Part shown: piece after piece, positions 18,571 to 34,734 of the stretch
Position numbering within the stretch: the stretch's first letter is position 1
How the letters are laid out: the number at the start of each line of letters is the position of its first letter
Origin: Patescibacteria group bacterium
GTDB lineage: Bacteria > Patescibacteriota > Minisyncoccia > Phycocordibacterales > JACZSL01
Direction: 5' to 3'
DNA: 42,673 nucleotides
Assembly: GCA_022574205.1 (NCBI GenBank)
Contig: JACZSL010000007.1
Span: 1 to 42,673 of the forward strand
Program-made: the position numbers and the translations under genes
Notes under the pieces: model-generated
The model's database searches: none
The model's input: only the letters and a program-made list of their open reading frames with translations
Told to the model about the DNA's origin: nothing

Positions 18571-20098
18571 ATTTTGGAAAAATTCCACGAACAGCTTCCG
18601 CTACCCGTGCCTTGTTACGACTTAGTCCTTGTTACCGAATTTACCTTAGGCCCACTCTAGGTGAGATTTCGGGTACCCCCGGCTTCCCTGACTTGACGGG
18701 CGGTGAGTACAAGACTCGAGAACATATTCACCGCAGTGTTGCTGACCTGCGATTACTAGCGATTCCGACTTCATGAGGTCGAGTTGCAGACCTCAATCCG
18801 AACTGGGGCCGCTTTTATAAGGATTTGCTCCACGTCTCCGCTTAGCGTCCCGTTGTAGCGACCATTGTATCACGTGTGCAGCCCAGGATATCAAGGGACA
18901 TGCTGACCTGGCGTCATCCTCACCTTCCTCTCTCGTGAGAGAGCAGTCTCGCCTGACACATATAACAGACAACGAGGGTTGCGTTCGTTTCCCCACTTAA
19001 GGGAACAGCTCAAGCCACGAACTGACGACGGCCATGCATCACCTGCCTATCCGTCCGAAGAAAGTCTCGGTTTCCCGAGATTGTCGTATAGGTTTCTAAC
19101 CCTGGTAAGGTTCTTCGCTTATCGTCGAATTAAGCCACATGATCCACCGCTTGTGCGAGTCCCCGTCTATTCCTTTGAGTTTTAAGCTTGCGCTCGTACT
19201 ACCCAGGCGCCAAACTTAACGCGTTAGCTTCGCCTCTCAGAGGGTCGATACTCCAAAAAGCTAGTTTGGATCGTTTACGGCGTGGACTACCGGGGTATCT
19301 AATCCCGTTCGCTACCCACGCTTTCGTATTTCAGCGTCAGGAATGTGCCAGCATACTGCCTTCGCTTTTGGTGTTCCCCATGATATCAACGCATTTCACC
19401 GCTACACCATGAGTTCCGTATACCTCTCACACCCTCAAGTCATGCCGTATCTTTCGCAATTCTTGGGTTGGGCCCAAGGCTTTCACAAAAGACTAACAAA
19501 ACCGCCTACATACCCTTTACGCCCAGTAAATCCGGGTAACGCTTGGGGCACTCGTATTACCGCGCCTGCTGGCACGAGTTTAGGCACCCCTTATTCCTCA
19601 AGTACCGTCAATAAACTTCTTCCTTGAGAAAAGATCTTTACGCACCGAAGTGCTTCATCAACCACGCGGCGTCGCTCCGTCAGGCTTTCGCCCATTGCGG
19701 AAGATTCTCGACTGCGGCCTCCCGTAGGAGTATGGGCCGTGTCTCAGTCCCATCGGTGGGGGCCAGGCTCTCACCTCCCCTAAGCGTCATAGCCTTGGTA
19801 GTCCGTTACACTACCAACAAGCTGATACTTCGCAGGCCGTTCCCAAAGCGATAAATCTTTACCCTTTCGGGACCATCAGGTATTAGTACGTCTTTCGACG
19901 CATTATTCCTGACTTTGGGGTACGTACCTACGTGTTACTACCTCGTCTGCCACTCCCCCTCGTTAGGGCCAACAAATAAAATCACAGAACTAAATCCACG
20001 AGACATTTGCAGGACCCGAATGAAGGGGCGTTCGACTTGCATGCCTTATCCACGCCGCCAGCGTTCACCCTGAGCTAGGATCAAACTCTAAAAATGAA
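18571..20098 (-). rRNA. 16S ribosomal RNA
   Basis: About 1.53 kb of continuous 16S sequence without an intron. It runs from AGAGTTTGATCCTAGCTCAG near the 5' end, through GTGCCAGCAGGCGCGGTAA at the 530 loop, to AAGTCGTAACAAGG and a helix-45 hairpin with a GGAA loop. After helix 45 it reads GTGGAATTTTTCC, where bacteria usually have TTGGATCACCTCC, so the anti-Shine-Dalgarno core is missing or changed. There are mismatches to common primers at the 27F, 338, 515F and 1492R sites. The gene has its own promoter and is not linked to 23S. The ends are estimated by comparison with E. coli. Confidence 0.95.
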
Positions 20099-27629: not shown

Positions 27630-29003
27630 CTAGCGTGGAATAAATGTAGAGTTTGTGCGCGGAATAACATCGAGCACAGCTGGACTCCTCTCACAGATTG
27701 CGTCTGAGATGTTTCTATAAATGCCATCGAGATCACGGCTGTCAGCCGCTTGATAATAATGCTCTCCTGAATCAGCGAGTGACCTTAAAAATGTTTCGTT
27801 AACATTATCTCCGAGTCCTATCGTATAGAGAATAATACCTTCATTTTTTGCTTTGATTGCGTGATCAATTGCATACTCCTCTCCACCAGGATCATCAGGT
27901 GCATTGGCTTTACCATCCGTGAGAAGAATGGCGATTTTTCGCTCCGTTTTAACACTTGCACGTGCTGCAAATTCTTGCCTTACGAGACGTAGTCCTTCTC
28001 CTGTGTTTGTCGAGCCAGTTTCTTCCTCAGGTTTAATAATGAGAGAACGAACGGCTTCTTTAGTGAAAGTGTGTATAAAGGTTAAAGATTGATTTATTTT
28101 AGCTGTAGTTCCAAACGATATAAGACCTACTTTATCAAGTTCCGAAAGTCTAGTAACAAAATCTGTTGCGGCGCTTTTTGCATCAGTTAGTGGTTGCGGT
28201 GGGTCTAGTGAGTCGTCATTCATGCTACCTGAAACGTCGATGAGGAGCATCGTCTGCACAGGCACCACACACGCTTCAAGTTCAATTTTGAATGGTTGCG
28301 GCCATGTAAATACAAGATTCGTTTCCGACCGCTCCGGAACAATATCAATAAATGTTCTACTCGTTGCGACTGCGTTTCCGAGTGCGTTGAATATAACAGA
28401 GATTATCTCGACATCATGTATTTCAAAAACAGAATCATTTTTTAATACAGCATCAAGTCGTGGTGTTGTGTCGGTATTTTTTAGAATCCTATTTTCAATT
28501 GATAAGTTTTTCTCTTCCCCTGCTATGACTTTAATCCATTCAAGTGTTTCTTGGAATTCGAAAAAGGTTCTTGTTGGAATATTTCCATTAGTTTTAATTG
28601 CACTTTCAAAAATTGGTGAAATATTTCCAGGTGTAATAAATGTACTTCCCTCCCGCTCTGCAATTAAGTTGCTTTCTTTGTCTAATAATCGGAATTTATA
28701 AGAAACATTCCTTACTCCAGCTTCAAAGTTTGGATTTTCAATGTAGGCAATTGCATTATACGTTCCAGGAACCACTTCAAAGGAGCGACTAAATAAAAGT
28801 GTTGGTTCTAATACTTGAGACTTGCACAAAAATTGGCACGATCCTCCACAGTCAATTCCCAATTCATCCTGATTTCTCGCGCCGTCAAAGCATGTTGGGC
28901 CATCATACAGTTTAATGTATGAATAAGTTCCAATAATTATTGCAGGAACGACAACGAGTCCTACTATGTAAACCATACGTCTTTTGCCAGACCACGATAA
29001 CAT
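27630..29003 (-). CDS. Membrane-anchored von Willebrand factor A protein
   Basis: A 457-residue protein. Residues 9-29 (MVYIVGLVVVPAIIIGTYSYI) form one membrane helix, then CFDGARNQDELGIDCGGSCQ is a cysteine-rich motif often seen in CPR surface proteins. Residues about 60-245 are a beta-rich domain. The von Willebrand A domain begins at MLLIDVSGSMNDDS, where Asp-x-Ser-x-Ser is the metal-ion site, and continues with LDKVGLISFGTTAKI, TGSTNTGEGLRLV and KIAILLTDGKANAPDDPGGE. Such domains bind proteins in a metal-dependent way, so adhesion or host contact is an inference. TACAAT lies seven bases before the ATG, suggesting a leaderless message. Confidence 0.88.
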   Translation of the reverse strand: MLSWSGKRRMVYIVGLVVVPAIIIGTYSYIKLYDGPTCFDGARNQDELGIDCGGSCQFLCKSQVLEPTLLFSRSFEVVPGTYNAIAYIENPNFEAGVRNVSYKFRLLDKESNLIAEREGSTFITPGNISPIFESAIKTNGNIPTRTFFEFQETLEWIKVIAGEEKNLSIENRILKNTDTTPRLDAVLKNDSVFEIHDVEIISVIFNALGNAVATSRTFIDIVPERSETNLVFTWPQPFKIELEACVVPVQTMLLIDVSGSMNDDSLDPPQPLTDAKSAATDFVTRLSELDKVGLISFGTTAKINQSLTFIHTFTKEAVRSLIIKPEEETGSTNTGEGLRLVRQEFAARASVKTERKIAILLTDGKANAPDDPGGEEYAIDHAIKAKNEGIILYTIGLGDNVNETFLRSLADSGEHYYQAADSRDLDGIYRNISDAICERSPAVLDVIPRTNSTFIPR

Positions 29004-29010
29004 TATCTAA

Positions 29011-29016
29011 ATTGTA
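29011..29016 (-). promoter_or_regulatory. -10 box abutting the von Willebrand A gene start
   Basis: TACAAT (minus strand) ends seven bases before the ATG at 29003. The box lies between that gene and the 5S terminator, so it serves this gene alone. Confidence 0.5.
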
Positions 29017-29060
29017 GCAGATTTTTGGTGTAAAGTAGCTAATTTGTTATAAATTTAAAT

Positions 29061-29083
29061 AAAAAAAACCGTGCAAAACACGG
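29061..29083 (-). terminator. Terminator of the 23S-5S locus
   Basis: On the minus strand CCGTG-TTTTG-CACGG is followed by eight T. It lies just after the 3' end of the outer 5S copy. Confidence 0.85.
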
Positions 29084-29126
29084 CTCTTTTTTATTGAGTG
29101 CTCTAAACTGGCGACTAGCTACTTTT

Positions 29127-29302
29127 CTTACAGAAACTGTAAATCTTACAGATTCAGTACAGGTTGTATGGTATTTTTTCAAAATACCGACAACCTTCTG
29201 GAACAGTACTAGGTACTATTCCAGCCTTGTCGATATTTTACCTCGGCATTCGCCTCATAAAATATCAGTCAAAGCCTTGCGACAGTCCCCCAGACTGTCT
29301 CA
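29127..29302 (-). other. Insertion in outer 5S, chain of hairpins
   Basis: Five consecutive hairpins fill this 176-base block: TTACAG/CTGTAA (29128-29142), GGTTGT-GGTATTTT/AAAATACC-ACAACC (29162-29195), CTGGAA-AGTAC/GTACT-TTCCAG (29198-29224), GATATTTTA/TAAAATATC (29232-29266) and ACAGTC/GACTGT (29282-29298). No reading frame or known ribozyme core was seen. Confidence 0.7.
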
Positions 29303-29320
29303 CCCCCGAAGAGTATCACC

Positions 29321-29435
29321 CGCCTGCCATCGCAAATGCTTAGTATGTGGTCTACACAATGTGTGAGACATTCTTATCATAATTTGCTTTAACTATATTT
29401 GTTGCTCTGGCATTGGCGGGCAGGTCACCACTACT
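29321..29435 (-). other. Insertion in outer 5S closed by a GC-rich stem
   Basis: The minus strand reads CCCGCC-AA-TGCC at the start and GGCA-GGCGGG at the end, which pair except for the AA bulge. The block is also bordered by a 13-base tandem duplication (29423-29435 and 29436-29448). Confidence 0.6.
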
Positions 29436-29494
29436 GGTCACCACTACTGTGCTTAACTTCTGTGTTCCCGATGCAAAATTTGTATCAAATACTC

Positions 29495-29605
29495 TGTGTT
29501 GGCGATTAGCTACTTTCCCCCGAAGAGTATCATCGCCACTACTGTGCTTAACTTCTGTGTTCGGAATGAGAACAGGTGGTTCCACAGCGTCGAATCACCA
29601 ACACA
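29495..29605 (-). rRNA. 5S ribosomal RNA (intact inner copy)
   Basis: A complete 111-base 5S gene. Helix I is TGTGTTGG/CCAACACA extended by UGAU/AUCG pairs. The sequence then shows CGACGCTGTGGAACCACCTG, TTCCGAACACAGAAGTTAAG and ATACTCTTCGGGGGAAAGTA, all in the normal order. A short inverted repeat, CAAAATTTGTA at 29474-29484 and TACAAATTTTG at about 29623-29633, flanks it like a processing stalk. The gene lies downstream of 23S on the same strand but inside the largest insertion of the outer 5S copy. Confidence 0.95.
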
Positions 29606-29691
29606 GAATATTTGATAAAAAGTACAAATTTTGCCACGGAACAGGTCAGAATGCTCCTCATCGAGCCTGAGGCTCTCAGAGCCGAATGGCC

Positions 29692-29795
29692 TGTTTACCC
29701 AAGAACGAAGTGATTGGTTGCAAACAGCAGTCCGCCTTTGGTGGGTTCCCGATTTGTCCACGAGCGTAGCTTGTGGTTACAAATCGCAATCCGCC
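29692..29795. repeat. Pair of 45-bp hairpin repeats with compensatory changes
   Basis: Two 45-base units (29692-29736 and 29751-29795) align without gaps. The arms are TGTTT/AAACA in one and GATTT/AAATC in the other. The inner pairs are CCAA/TTGG versus CCAC/GTGG, and the apical pair is A-T versus G-C. Both units end CCGCC. The matched changes on both arms support a conserved fold. The units may be REP-like or derived from a mobile element. Confidence 0.7.
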
Positions 29796-30280
29796 AACCT
29801 GTCTGCGTACGGACACGCACAGGCAGAAGCTTTGCGGCGGCGGAAGAACAGGTGGTTCCACAACAGCGTCGAATCACCAGATCACAGCACTCAATGCTGG
29901 AGCATGTCCTAAACTTGGGTTCCCAAGTTTTGGATATGCTCCAATATATCTAGAAATATATTCACACTCTGAAAAGTGATTTCCACATTTCCCAACAAGA
30001 TCGACGAATTAGTACCCTTTGGCTAAACACATCACTGTGCGTACACCTTGGGCCTATCAACCTAGTCATCTCCTAGGGGTCTCAAACGATTCCTAATCTT
30101 GAAGTTGGCTTCCCGCTTATATGCTTTCAGCAGTTATCCATTCCCGACATAGCTACCGAGCAATGCCCTTGGCAGGACAGCTCGTACACCAGAGGTCAGT
30201 TCCTTCGGGTCCTCTCGTACTACGAAGAAATCTCCTCAAGAATCAACGCCTACAGCAGATAGAGACCAACCTGTCTCACG

Positions 30281-30609
30281 CTCCTTTTCACACATTACTG
30301 TGTGGGACGGACTATATCTTACAAGCTCTAACTTTAGTTGGGGCTCGTGCTAACGTGTAGTCTCTACGGGTCTAAAAAGCGGAGTTTATAGCCGTCTTCC
30401 AGTTCCCTCGGTATTGTCCTGAGCTTATTTCTCAATAAGCGAAGGATTTCACCGATATAGTTAGCTTCTTACTTCGACTTTTTCGTTACAAAAAATCTCA
30501 GCACCGCCGTGATTGGTTGGTATATCTTTTTCATAGACGAAAAGACCTTGATTTTTGTCGTTATGTTGGACTCAGACGGTCCTGAAGCGAAACTGTGTTT
30601 CGCTGAAGG
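30281..30609 (-). mobile_element. Group I intron 1 in 23S (about E. coli 2593)
   Basis: A 329-base insert between GACCGU and CGUGAGACAG, close to the I-CreI insertion site of algal chloroplast 23S. The core elements are AGAGACTACACG and AAGATATAGTCC, followed by a P9 hairpin CACACA-GTAA-TGTGTG with a GNRA loop and a terminal G. A long near-perfect hairpin (about 21 bp, two mismatches) spans the 5' splice site (30572-30616). There is no endonuclease gene. The core motifs match the other two introns, but splice sites are inferred from exon continuity only. Confidence 0.85.
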
Positions 30610-30702
30610 ACGGTCTGAACCCAGCTCGCGTACCTTTTTAATTGGCGAACAGCCAAACCCTTGGGACCTTCTCCAGCCCCAGGATAAGGTGAGCCGACAT
30701 CG

Positions 30703-31048
30703 CTAATGGCTCATTAACTACTGTTACCAGTAGGATCGGACTATATCTTCACCCAGCTCCAGTTTTGTGATTAGAAATTTCTATTTCCAAAACTGGGGCT
30801 GGGGATTGGCGTGTAGTCTCTGAGGGTTCTTCGTATTTTTGAATATTATTTCAAAAACGTAGAAGTCTTCCCTGCTGATTATCCCGAACAAACAAATTTT
30901 CAAACCACTCAGCTCAATCTTTCGATTCACTGTTTGGGTTTTGTTTGCTTTTAGTCGGCTAAACTTGGGAGTTCCAGCATATAGCCAATTTGTTTTTGTA
31001 GCACATTTCTGCGCTAGGCACCCCGATTTGTTTGTAACAAACACGTTA
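30703..31048 (-). mobile_element. Group I intron 2 in 23S (about E. coli 2500)
   Basis: A 346-base insert between GGCACCU and CGAUGUCGGC. The core contains GCTATATGCTGGAACTCCC, CAGAGACTACACG and AAGATATAGTCCGATC. The P9 hairpin is CTACTG-GTAA-CAGTAG with a GNRA loop, and the last base before the exon is G. No endonuclease reading frame is present. Its P-element and core are very like those of intron 3, so the two may be related by transposition. Confidence 0.88.
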
Positions 31049-31090
31049 AGGTGCCGAACACCGCCGTCGATATGAACTCTTGGGCGGTAC

Positions 31091-31126
<36 letters not shown>

Positions 31127-31277
31127 GCTCTGGCCGCATCTAAAGCGAACCATCGGATCACTATGTTCTGCTTTCGCACTTGCTCGACATGTACGTCTTA
31201 CAATCAAGCCAGTTTATGCCATTACACTATCGGCACGGTTTCCATTCGCGCCTAACTGACCTTAATAAACTCCTCCG

Positions 31278-31919
31278 TTACCTTTTAGGCATTGTGTTAC
31301 TCAACTTGTGCTTCATCGAAGGAACGTTTTTAACATATGGTTTTATCACCTCACGAAATCTATTTGCAGATTCCGATAAAATGTATAATCTCCAGTATCT
31401 TCCTTTTTGCGCGTGAAGCTTTGTTTTAAGTCCAAACTTTTCCAATAGTACGTCACAGATTCTTTTTAACTCTGGTTTGGCATATCCAAGTGTGTGGATA
31501 ATGTATGTTTTATGTAGTGAAGACTTTCTCGAGCCATCATCCATAAACCATACTGCAAGTCCAATTGGGTTAAGTAACTTGTGAATCAACTTTGGAATAA
31601 CTTTCACTTTACCTTTATAGAATTGCTGACCATAGAAACGAAATGTTCCATGGGAGTACGTCGTAAAACCAACACTTTCCTGACCATTCTTACGCTTTTT
31701 GTAGAATAAACCAGAAGGTGCCCACTCCTTAAAATAGTTATAGAGCCACATTACATAATCTTCCTGCTCTAAAGAGTGTTCGACTTTTAGACGGTAGGTT
31801 TTACCGTTGTTTTGTGTTTCTAAGTGACCATCTCCAAGAAGTAAACCAGTTAGTATTGATCGTTGGATTTCTTTAAGTTTGAGCTTTTCTTTGTACTTTT
31901 GAATTTCTTTCGAATTCAT
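31278..31919 (-). CDS. LAGLIDADG homing endonuclease
   Basis: A 213-residue single-chain endonuclease carried by intron 3. Two LAGLIDADG-like helices are visible: ILTGLLLGDGHLE (about 22-34) and LAVWFMDDGSR (about 119-129), each with an acidic metal ligand. They are separated by beta-strand segments such as GVTFTTY-like and YIIHTLGY. It would cut an intronless 23S allele at the insertion site and so spread the intron; some members also act as maturases. The C-terminus TMPKR and the stop are encoded by the downstream exon, beyond the splice site. The reading frame is intact, so the element may still be mobile. Confidence 0.9.
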   Translation of the reverse strand: MNSKEIQKYKEKLKLKEIQRSILTGLLLGDGHLETQNNGKTYRLKVEHSLEQEDYVMWLYNYFKEWAPSGLFYKKRKNGQESVGFTTYSHGTFRFYGQQFYKGKVKVIPKLIHKLLNPIGLAVWFMDDGSRKSSLHKTYIIHTLGYAKPELKRICDVLLEKFGLKTKLHAQKGRYWRLYILSESANRFREVIKPYVKNVPSMKHKLSNTMPKR

Positions 31920-32275
31920 AGTTTGAGTTTTCTCTCGCTTTTGAGAGAACTTTATGTCGCCATAAAGATCGGACTATATCTTCTCGCCTCGTGCCTAACG
32001 GCAGATGAGCCTTTGGCTCAAAGAGGTGAGTTCCGCGTGTAGTCTCTGAGGGGTCAACCCGTCAGTTGACGGACGACTTCCCTGCTGATTGTCTGCACTC
32101 ATACATTTTTACCCATTCGACCTGTCTGCCGACAGATAGGCATGTGGTAGCATGAGATACTACAGGCTTTTAGCCACAGATGTTCCAGCATATAGCGGAA
32201 TGTTTGCCTCGATGTCACCATCGAGGATCCCCATTTATAATTTTGGTCCCGGATATGACCGTGGGCGCAAGGTTA
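31290..32275 (-). mobile_element. Group I intron 3 in 23S with endonuclease gene
   Basis: A 986-base insert in the peptidyl-transferase P-loop region, between GGGGCGCUAUCCU and CCUAAAAGGUAACGG. By counting this is about E. coli 2262. The core has GCTATATGCTGGAACATC, CAGAGACTACACG and AAGATATAGTCCGATC with a P9 hairpin CTTTATG-GCGA-CATAAAG. The LAGLIDADG gene lies after P9 and runs to the 3' splice site. Joining the flanks gives an exon that matches bacterial 23S without a gap. Splice sites are inferred from that fit. Confidence 0.9.
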
Positions 32276-32600
32276 AGGATAGCGCCCCACTAAAACTACC
32301 TGCCAGATACTGTTCCTATGTGGTTTTGCCACGCAGGTTAGAACACACATCATAAAAGGATGGTATTTCACTGACGACTCCACTTCAACCAAAATTGAAG
32401 CTTCAAAGTCTCCCATCTATACTACGCAGTTAAAACATGCGCTCAATACCAAGCTGTAGTAAAGCTCCCGGGGTCTTTTCGTCTAGCTGCAGGTAACCGG
32501 CATCTTTACCGGTATTGCATTTTCACCAGGCTGCTCCTCGAGACAGTTCCCCAGTCGTTACGCCATTCGTGCACGTCTGAAATTACCAGACAAGGAATTA

Positions 32601-32639
<39 letters not shown>

Positions 32640-34734
32640 CAGGGCTTACACAGCCCAGCCATATTTCCGAAGAAAAATGACCCTCCGTGTTTAACCTTCT
32701 GGCATTGGTCAGGCGTCACCCCCTATACATCCTCTTATGAGTTCGCAGGGAGCTGTGTTTTTGATAAACAGTCGCCAGGGATTCTTTAGCTGCGGCCGAG
32801 CCCTACAAGTAGGGTTCGGCAGATCTTATTCCGAAGTTACGATCGCTGTTTTGCCGAGTTCCTTGAGGAGCAATCACCTGTTCGCCTTGGTCTTCTCGAC
32901 CCTACCACCTGTGTCGGTTTGCGGTACGGATTTTAGAGTATTAGAGCTTAGAGACTTTTCTTGGAAGCGTGCTCCCTCGAATTTCCGAATCCCGAAGGAA
33001 ACAGATTTTCGCTCCGCTTGAACTTGTGCTGCCCGGATTTTCCTGAAGCAACATTCTCACGGTACGAACGTAAATCCAATAATACGCTCGAGGTACAACT
33101 CTCCGTCCTCCCATCGCATACTCTAAAAGTTACGGAATATTAACCGTATGTCCATCGCCTCCAACTTTCGTCATCGGCTTAGGTCCGACTAACCCTTGGC
33201 TGATCATCGTCGCCAAGGAAACCTCGGTATTTCGGCGTGCGGGGGTCTCACCCGCATTGCGGTTACTCGTGCCAACATTCTCACTTCCATACGCTCCACC
33301 GTGGCTTACGCCTTCGGCTTCATAGCAGAATGGAACGCTCTCCTACCGCCGAGCACATAACGAATTATGTGTTCGACCCTCATTTTCGGTACCATACTTA
33401 GCCCCGATTATCTGCGGCGCAAAGACTCTCGATGAGTGAGCTGTTACGCTTTCGTTAAAGGATGGCTGCTTCTAAGCCAACCTCCTCATTGTCAACGAAT
33501 CTTCACCTCCTTAAGTGCACTTAGTATGAATTTAGGGACCTTAAATTGAGATCTGGGCTGTTTCCCTTTCGACCGACGGAGCTTAGCCCCCATGGTCTAA
33601 CTGCCAAGTTTATAACTTCTGGTATTCGGAGTTTGATAGGTGGGACGAGGTTTCCCCCTATTCCCACCTTCCAGTGCTCTACCCCCAGAAGGATCACTCG
33701 ACGCCAACCCTAAAGCTGTTTCGGAGAGAACCAGCTATTACAAGGTTCGATTAGCTTTTCACTCCTTACCACAGGTCATCCGATGGAGTTGAACGACCAA
33801 CCGGTTCGGGCCTCCGCCTTTCTTTCGAAAGACTTCACCCTGCCCATGGTAAGCTCACCTTGTTTCGGGTCTTATCCATACTACTAAGTTCGCGCTATTA
33901 ACACTCGGTTTCCCTAAAGCTCCGGGGGAAGACCCCTTAGCTTGGCAGTATAGATAAACTCGTTGGCTCATTCTTCAATAGGCACGCCATGACGGACGCA
34001 AGCGCCCGCTCTGACTCCTTGTAGGCATATGGTTTCAGATCTATTTCACTGTCCTCCCGGACTGTTTTTCACCTTTCCCTCACGGTACTGGTTCACTATC
34101 GATCTCTAAAAGTATTTAGCCTTACCGGTTAGTGCCGGTAGATTCACCCAAGCTATTCGTGTCTTGGGCTACTCAAGAATAAAAGCAAGAGAGGTGTATT
34201 ATTTTTCATTACGGGGCTATTACCCTCTGGGGCCGCGCTTCCCAGCACGTTCACATAACAATACACTTTGTAACTCTCCTTGTGTAAACACAAAGCTTTT
34301 ACCTTACAACCCCCCTTTATAAATAAAGAGGTTTGGGCTTCTCCCGTTTCGCTCGCCGCTACTCAGGGAATACCTGAACTTTTTAGTTTACGGAAAATGG
34401 AATTTCCGCAAGCTAAAAAGCTCGTTATTGGTCTCTATTCCTACGGGTACTGAGATGTTTCACTTCCCCGCGTGCGCCTCCTGCTTAAAAGCAGGATGAC
34501 CGACAAAATCGGTCGGGTTCCCCCATTGGGATACCTCCGGATCAAAGGTTGCTAGGCACCTCCCCGAAGATTATCGCAGCCAAGCCACGTCCTTCATCGC
34601 CTTTTAGAGTCTAGGCATCCACCATACGCCCTTACATTTCCTGTTGGGAAATGTAAAAACCGCCTTTTCTATTTTCCTGCGCACCTTGGCGCAAGAAAAA
34701 ATGTGTGATTGCACATTGTAAAAAATACAATGTT

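Follow-up and report, generated by a model that had tools for sequence, protein, structure and literature searches.

A complete 5S rRNA gene nested inside a split 5S rRNA gene, and the recurrence of this arrangement in related Patescibacteria

The nested 5S locus

The window analysed here is the whole stretch of 42,673 nucleotides of contig JACZSL010000007.1, from the 650-kb draft genome of a Patescibacteria group bacterium of the Candidatus Paceibacteria type (assembly GCA_022574205.1; G000 below). On its minus strand the 23S gene (34631 to about 29990) is followed by the 5' part of an outer, split 5S gene, then by a complete inner 5S gene, the 3' part of the outer gene and a terminator. The inner 5S is 106 nt long (29602-29497) and matches the Rfam model RF00001 over model positions 1-120 at 72.7 bits, the gathering threshold being 38. 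It is the only Rfam 5S match across the draft genome and is probably its working 5S gene. Given this intact gene, the outer copy is therefore not the sole 5S of the genome. Read from the 23S side, the features are as follows.

29886..29895, minus strand: 5' strand of the outer stem (10 bp, outside helix I); inverted repeat I3
29845..29880, minus strand: outer 5S block A, the 5' strands of helices I, II (with 3 extra nt) and III
29654..29844, minus strand: gap A/A', several short repeats, pieces of which match contigs C2, C5, C17 and C21 of G000 as well as relatives
29646..29653, minus strand: outer 5S block A' (CATTCTGA), the first part of loop C
29603..29645, minus strand: left arm of the cassette stem, CCTGTTCCGTGGCAAAATTTGTA...TATTCTGT, starting directly behind CATTCTGA and pairing with the right arm
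29497..29602, minus strand: complete inner 5S rRNA gene, probably the one in use
29466..29496, minus strand: right arm of the cassette stem, CAGAGTATTTGATACAAATTTTGCATCGGGA; inverted repeats I1 and I5, ending directly before ACACAG
29438..29465, minus strand: outer 5S block B (ACACAGAAGTTAAGCACAGTAGTGGTGA); direct repeat D1, 97%, also placed by the spliced alignment
29319..29437, minus strand: gap B/C, a 13-nt tandem duplication (after block B) and a dispersed repeat
29303..29318, minus strand: outer 5S block C (TGATACTCTTCGGGGG); direct repeat D6, 100%
29127..29302, minus strand: gap C/D, dispersed repeats; 29306-29227 and 29197-29142 match elsewhere in G000 or in relatives
29108..29126, minus strand: outer 5S block D (AAAAGTAGCTAGTCGCCAG), with the 3' strand of helix I; direct repeat D2, pairing with block A
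29093..29102, minus strand: 3' strand of the outer stem (10 bp, outside helix I), from the predicted fold
29061..29091, minus strand: intrinsic terminator directly 3' of the outer 5S, a 14-pair stem and a T run

The outer 5S is thus made of five ordered blocks and four gaps. A preliminary description of this DNA counted four ordered blocks with three insertions, having missed block A'; its lengths for the outer and inner copies (about 109 and 111 bases) are here replaced by about 107 and 106 nt. The 3-nt insertion in helix II and the 13-nt tandem duplication are likewise absent from it. Block A corresponds to the direct repeats D4 and D5 and is 100% identical to the inner 5S except for its 3-nt insertion in helix II, and block A' lies where CATTCCGA lies in the other nested loci described below. 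When the inner 5S was aligned in spliced form to its masked flanks the score was 136. Against 336 controls made by reversal or shuffling (mean 37.8, standard deviation 6.6, maximum 61.8) this is an excess of about 15 standard deviations. The central claim of a whole 5S nested in a split one holds. A covariance model had been proposed as a check on the blocks. As it stands the outer copy is not matched by RF00001 even at E-values up to 1, which is expected because the inserts that interrupt it exceed 100 nt, while the joined blocks do contain the helices: compared with the inner copy, 27 of the 5S consensus pairs are unchanged, 2 become G-U, none is broken and 2 are missing.

Several finer points of the preliminary description were confirmed. 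The cuts fall in loops or junctions, and the first pair of helix I is U-A in one copy and C-G in the other, a change on both sides. The ten flanking bases that had been said to pair across about 800 bp (29886-29895 with 29093-29102) do so in the predicted fold at probabilities of 0.75-1.0, and helix I and this stem pair across 760 nt. Most pairs of both are near probability 1 in an unconstrained fold of 29060-29910. In its sequence the outer 5S of the window is well preserved, though it carries the 3 extra nt in helix II. The arms of the cassette that holds the inner 5S form a stem of -16.4 kcal/mol in the window and of -16 to -26 in relatives. No terminator-like site was found 3' of the inner 5S.

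The gaps are filled with repeats. The stretch 29426-29316 in gap B/C matches G000:C7:2046-2155 at 75% and also matches relatives; the dispersed nature of the repeats in G000 was judged from searches alone. In relatives the inserts within 5S genes are short palindromic repeats in either orientation. An intron reading was considered and rejected, as the Rfam group I and group II intron models do not match within 29000-30000. An orientation-specific RNA intron was also rejected: the insert of G047 is the reverse complement of that of G302, and it therefore behaves as a DNA repeat.

The surroundings of the locus have features of their own. A 22-bp hairpin with 91% complementarity (29898-29943) separates the outer 5S from the end of the 23S gene. 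The 23S gene contains two group I introns (31950-32249 and 30717-31049, minus strand), and a 213-aa ORF between them (31278-31919) is a LAGLIDADG_2 endonuclease; a further 132-aa ORF in the 23S (30781-31179) has no Pfam match. The order of the rRNA genes is unusual, with 23S-5S (23S at 29990-34631) about 9 kb upstream of 16S (18573-20096), both on the minus strand and with protein genes between them, and a tRNA-Ile is positioned behind 16S. Directly behind the 5S terminator is a gene for a VWA-domain protein (27630-29003, minus strand). In many relatives the 5S is followed by a gene that, by eye, has a similar N-terminal region.

Nesting in related genomes

The arrangement, first described as unlike anything known, is no one-off: it is recurrent in the order and present in at least one genome of another class. 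We sampled 168 5S loci of the order, in which the named relatives found are MAGs of Candidatus Taylorbacteria / Paceibacterota. At 31 of the 168 there is a further 5S, split or partial, with a spliced score above every null; the sample combines loci spread across taxa, those of one enriched family and those with top scores, and this fraction is accordingly not an unbiased rate. The same layout in related genomes, which the preliminary description had suggested looking for, is therefore there. Extra 5S fragments on the same strand within 900 nt occur at 38 of the 168 loci, and in total 70 same-strand matches compare with 6 on the opposite strand. Reading by hand identified nested loci that include those of G050, G302, G391, G263, G233, G412, G322, G372, G178, G301, G039 and G048, with three layers indicated in G412, G050 and G233. 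A strict pattern scan of GTDB species returned 12 loci, among them G050, G039, G302 and G233. Beyond the order, in sets of 30 and 19 loci, only G549 and, weakly, G469 rose above the null. G549 (L233) belongs to a different class of the phylum and has a nested 5S in loop C with CCCCG...CGGGG arms.

Incomplete and tandem forms also occur. In G042 and G047 the outer copy is represented by its 5' half alone, whereas G118, G389 and G342 have just the 3' half; tandem 5S copies occur in G295, G014 and G165. In G165 (L158) the second copy downstream is seemingly permuted and lacks the 5' strand of helix I, the 3' stem running directly into about position 12 of the next 5S copy. In G178 (L203) the stretch that separates the inner 5S from the outer 3' part contains a small ORF and a hairpin resembling a terminator. 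Separately, expanded 5S genes of 133-162 nt are present in G180 (L210), G081 (L220), G455 (L270) and G494 (L271), and in the first two the region of helix IV bears a long hairpin; Patescibacteria with such expansions are missing from the groups named in the abstract of PMC7812874. The idea that relatives lacking a 5S match depend on a split 5S was rejected, since none of 8 such genomes gave a 23S 3' end, and the rRNA operon is therefore probably absent from these drafts.

In eight genomes (G000, G302, G391, G050, G412, G263, G233 and G039) eight cassettes cut the outer 5S at exactly the bond between CATTCCGA and ACA in loop C, and the outer parts fit together at one bond without overlap or loss. 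This claim is confined to cases checked by hand because automated spliced alignments misplace short blocks in some relatives (e.g. G256 and G012). The cassettes at this bond have similar ends, about TGCCCCGT...ACGGGG or roughly TG(C/T)CCCGT ... CGGGG, and both the ends and the identical bond span different families; the ends in the window, TTCCGTGG...CATCGGGA, have diverged from this consensus. A second cut site, between GAAG and TTAAG, is used in G412 and G322, and its left side also in G407 and G048.

The cassette ends also bear on dispersed repeats. Palindromes of the form CCCGTAGT...ACTACTGG, whose ends nearly equal those of the G322 cassette, have 8 strict copies in G263, 4 in G056 and 1 in G000. 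They are absent from G302, G372 and G178, and the same holds for 5 genomes of the order that have a single 5S and for 6 from other classes. By these matching ends the cassette appears to resemble the dispersed palindromes. Searches of G000 revealed no 5S cassette beyond the 5S locus itself. That genome has one Y1 (RAYT-like) transposase, a type present in 14 of 18 genomes and absent from G302, G372 and G165, which have extra 5S copies; a link of the cassette to Y1/RAYT transposases is a possibility.

Origin and fate of the nested copies

Comparisons between related genomes indicate which gene came first. Genus-mate G286 of G263 has one 5S, which is intact, and the joined outer 5S of G263 agrees with it at 72 of 73 positions, the flanking stems of the two being similar; the inner 5S of G263 has a changed helix I. 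Likewise, sequence and flanks identify the outer 5S of G050 as orthologous to the 5S that is intact in G190, whose own older outer remnant corresponds to the third layer of G050. Single-5S genus-mates score only 34-48 in the split-5S test, which is the null level (G286, G308, G239, G364 and G130; G312, paired with G178; G305, G260, G057 and G125, with G391; G279 and G201, with G301). For these cases it follows that the intact gene was there first and the cassette was put in afterwards. For the locus of the window itself, a close relative whose site is empty was not found. Judging by genus labels rather than a tree, the nesting seems to have arisen several times independently.

Our preferred reading is that of a nested ('matryoshka') 5S, in which the inner copy is the working gene and the outer copy is a former 5S, at its normal place behind the 23S, that was interrupted by the cassette. 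We give this a probability of roughly two in three. It builds on what can be directly observed, which is how the locus is laid out, its recurrence, a cut at one and the same bond, the similar cassette ends and the sister genomes with an uninterrupted gene, and in it the 5S gene seems to be repeatedly replaced by its own copy inserted into itself. A long-stem hairpin cassette carrying a 5S, with ends like TGCCCCGT...ACGGGG, would enter loop C between CATTCCGA and ACA, and other dispersed palindromic repeats would enter further loops of the outer gene. The cassette-borne 5S could then take over, leaving the old gene as a shell that gathers more repeats and usually decays. A single transcript may come from the side of the 23S and extend as far as the terminator that follows the outer copy. 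The cassette is a loop insert with self-complementary ends, as in an rRNA intervening sequence removed by RNase III, and G000 has an RNase III gene (254.7 bits); RNase III-like cleavage of the long double-stranded stem could free an inner pre-5S that keeps the extended helix known from single-5S relatives. The outer 5S would be left as nicked pieces held together by base pairing through helices I-III. It may stay like the inner copy for a time through gene conversion or recent origin, or else decay, and the cycle could repeat as a new copy nests in the current 5S.

The fate of the shells varies between lineages. Over 72-74 nt the outer 3' parts of G372 and G178 show no difference from the inner copy, which points to gene conversion or a recent origin. 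Judged by flanking sequence and cut site, a single nesting is common to G301 and G256, and what is left of the outer 5S in either genome is similar to the inner copy of that genome; G256 has lost the outer 5' half that its genus-mate G301 retains. In several relatives the outer copies have 5-9 broken pairs. With the loss in G256, this means that the shell is dispensable in some lineages, and in many relatives the outer copy is, by its sequence, clearly decaying.

How the cassette moves is a more tentative matter. It may be mobile, or be copied as a palindromic-repeat (REP/MITE-like) unit. Counting against this are the lack of a 5S cassette elsewhere in G000, the single strict palindrome of that genome, the diverged cassette ends of the window and the absence of Y1 transposase genes from some genomes with extra 5S copies. 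In the fuller form of the preferred reading, which we hold to be possible at clearly less than even odds, a mobile, self-targeting palindromic 5S cassette would aim at one bond of loop C, disable and replace the resident gene and drive a serial turnover by self-nesting, and fresh shells may serve as a fragmented 5S. If the unit is mobile, an essential RNA gene present as a single copy could in this way be replaced while its function is kept, and the process might help to account for how quickly helices I and II of the 5S change within genera. The nested loci could instead come, with no mobile unit at all, from local tandem duplication or from template switching whose breakpoints lay in loop C, followed by loss of parts to leave half, whole and half copies. 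The half-nested and tandem states described above fit this, and no free cassette is known. Against it stand the outer halves that join at one bond in eight genomes with neither overlap nor loss, and the similar ends of cassettes in different families, which resemble dispersed palindromes; we regard this account as doubtful.

A different question is whether the outer 5S still works, as a fragmented 5S (cleaved and not joined) or an expanded one that enters some ribosomes. The window gives some encouragement, as no pair of its outer copy is broken by substitution, helix I has changed on both sides, the ends are predicted to fold together and the terminator is located behind the outer copy. Automatic calls also give compensatory changes against the own inner copy, 4 in G050 and 3 in G302. 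As proof of present function these changes are weakened, since the same 5S is the intact gene in G190, and those of G050 and G263 date from when the outer copy was the only gene. Moreover, an intact 5S is present in every case, and the half lost from G256 and kept in G301, the 5-9 broken pairs elsewhere and the extra nucleotides in helix II of the window all speak against function. We think it unlikely that the outer copy still works in this way. A mis-joining of two ordinary 5S copies, which the preliminary description had named as the way its claim could fall, might be feared in a draft metagenome-type genome with repeats, and is rejected as extremely improbable because the same nesting, often with the same cut bond, recurs in many separate assemblies and inside contigs of up to tens of kb.

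Comparison with known systems

A 2024 survey of 645 CPR 5S genes used the same Rfam model and reported none with an insertion reaching 100 bp (PMC11270868). A nested 5S would escape such a survey, as a search of this type sees only the intact copy. The 5S, in that survey the sole rRNA gene free of large insertions (PMC11270868), is here struck repeatedly and often at one bond, and the inserted unit brings its own replacement. As annotation tools detect only the intact copy, a class of nested rRNA genes is overlooked. The locus could also provide a testable system for fragmented 5S rRNA. We found no published report of a 5S nested in a 5S within the open-access literature searched.

Palindromic units tolerated inside genes are known from the Rickettsia palindromic elements, which do not carry the gene that they interrupt. 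Other small mobile repeats are likewise tolerated inside genes and differ from our case in that the interrupted gene is not carried by the repeat (PMC2229807). Closer in host are the intervening sequences that CPR 16S and 23S genes contain along with group I introns (PMC11270868). They occur in the same bacteria and are non-intron inserts, short and placed at known IVS sites, thought to be cut by RNase III, whereas the insert here holds a complete 5S and lies inside a 5S gene. In other groups, expanded 5S rRNAs have 1-3 helical insertions in the 5S core (Stepanov and Fox, PMC7812874; Halococcus morrhuae, PMC7530397). There too, pseudogenes in the form of 5S remnants with insertions are found beside normal copies; unlike here, the expansion segments are 13-109 nt long, and there is no report of one in CPR nor a description of one with a second 5S inside it. 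The REP/REPIN elements and their RAYT transposases (PMC3116915, PMC3733652, PMC2817692) resemble the present case in having dispersed short imperfect palindromes with fixed ends and a variable middle, and Y1 transposase genes are found in most of the genomes examined here. What sets our elements apart, besides a link to the transposase that is putative, is their low copy number, their place within an rRNA gene and the existence of one type that has a 5S as its middle.
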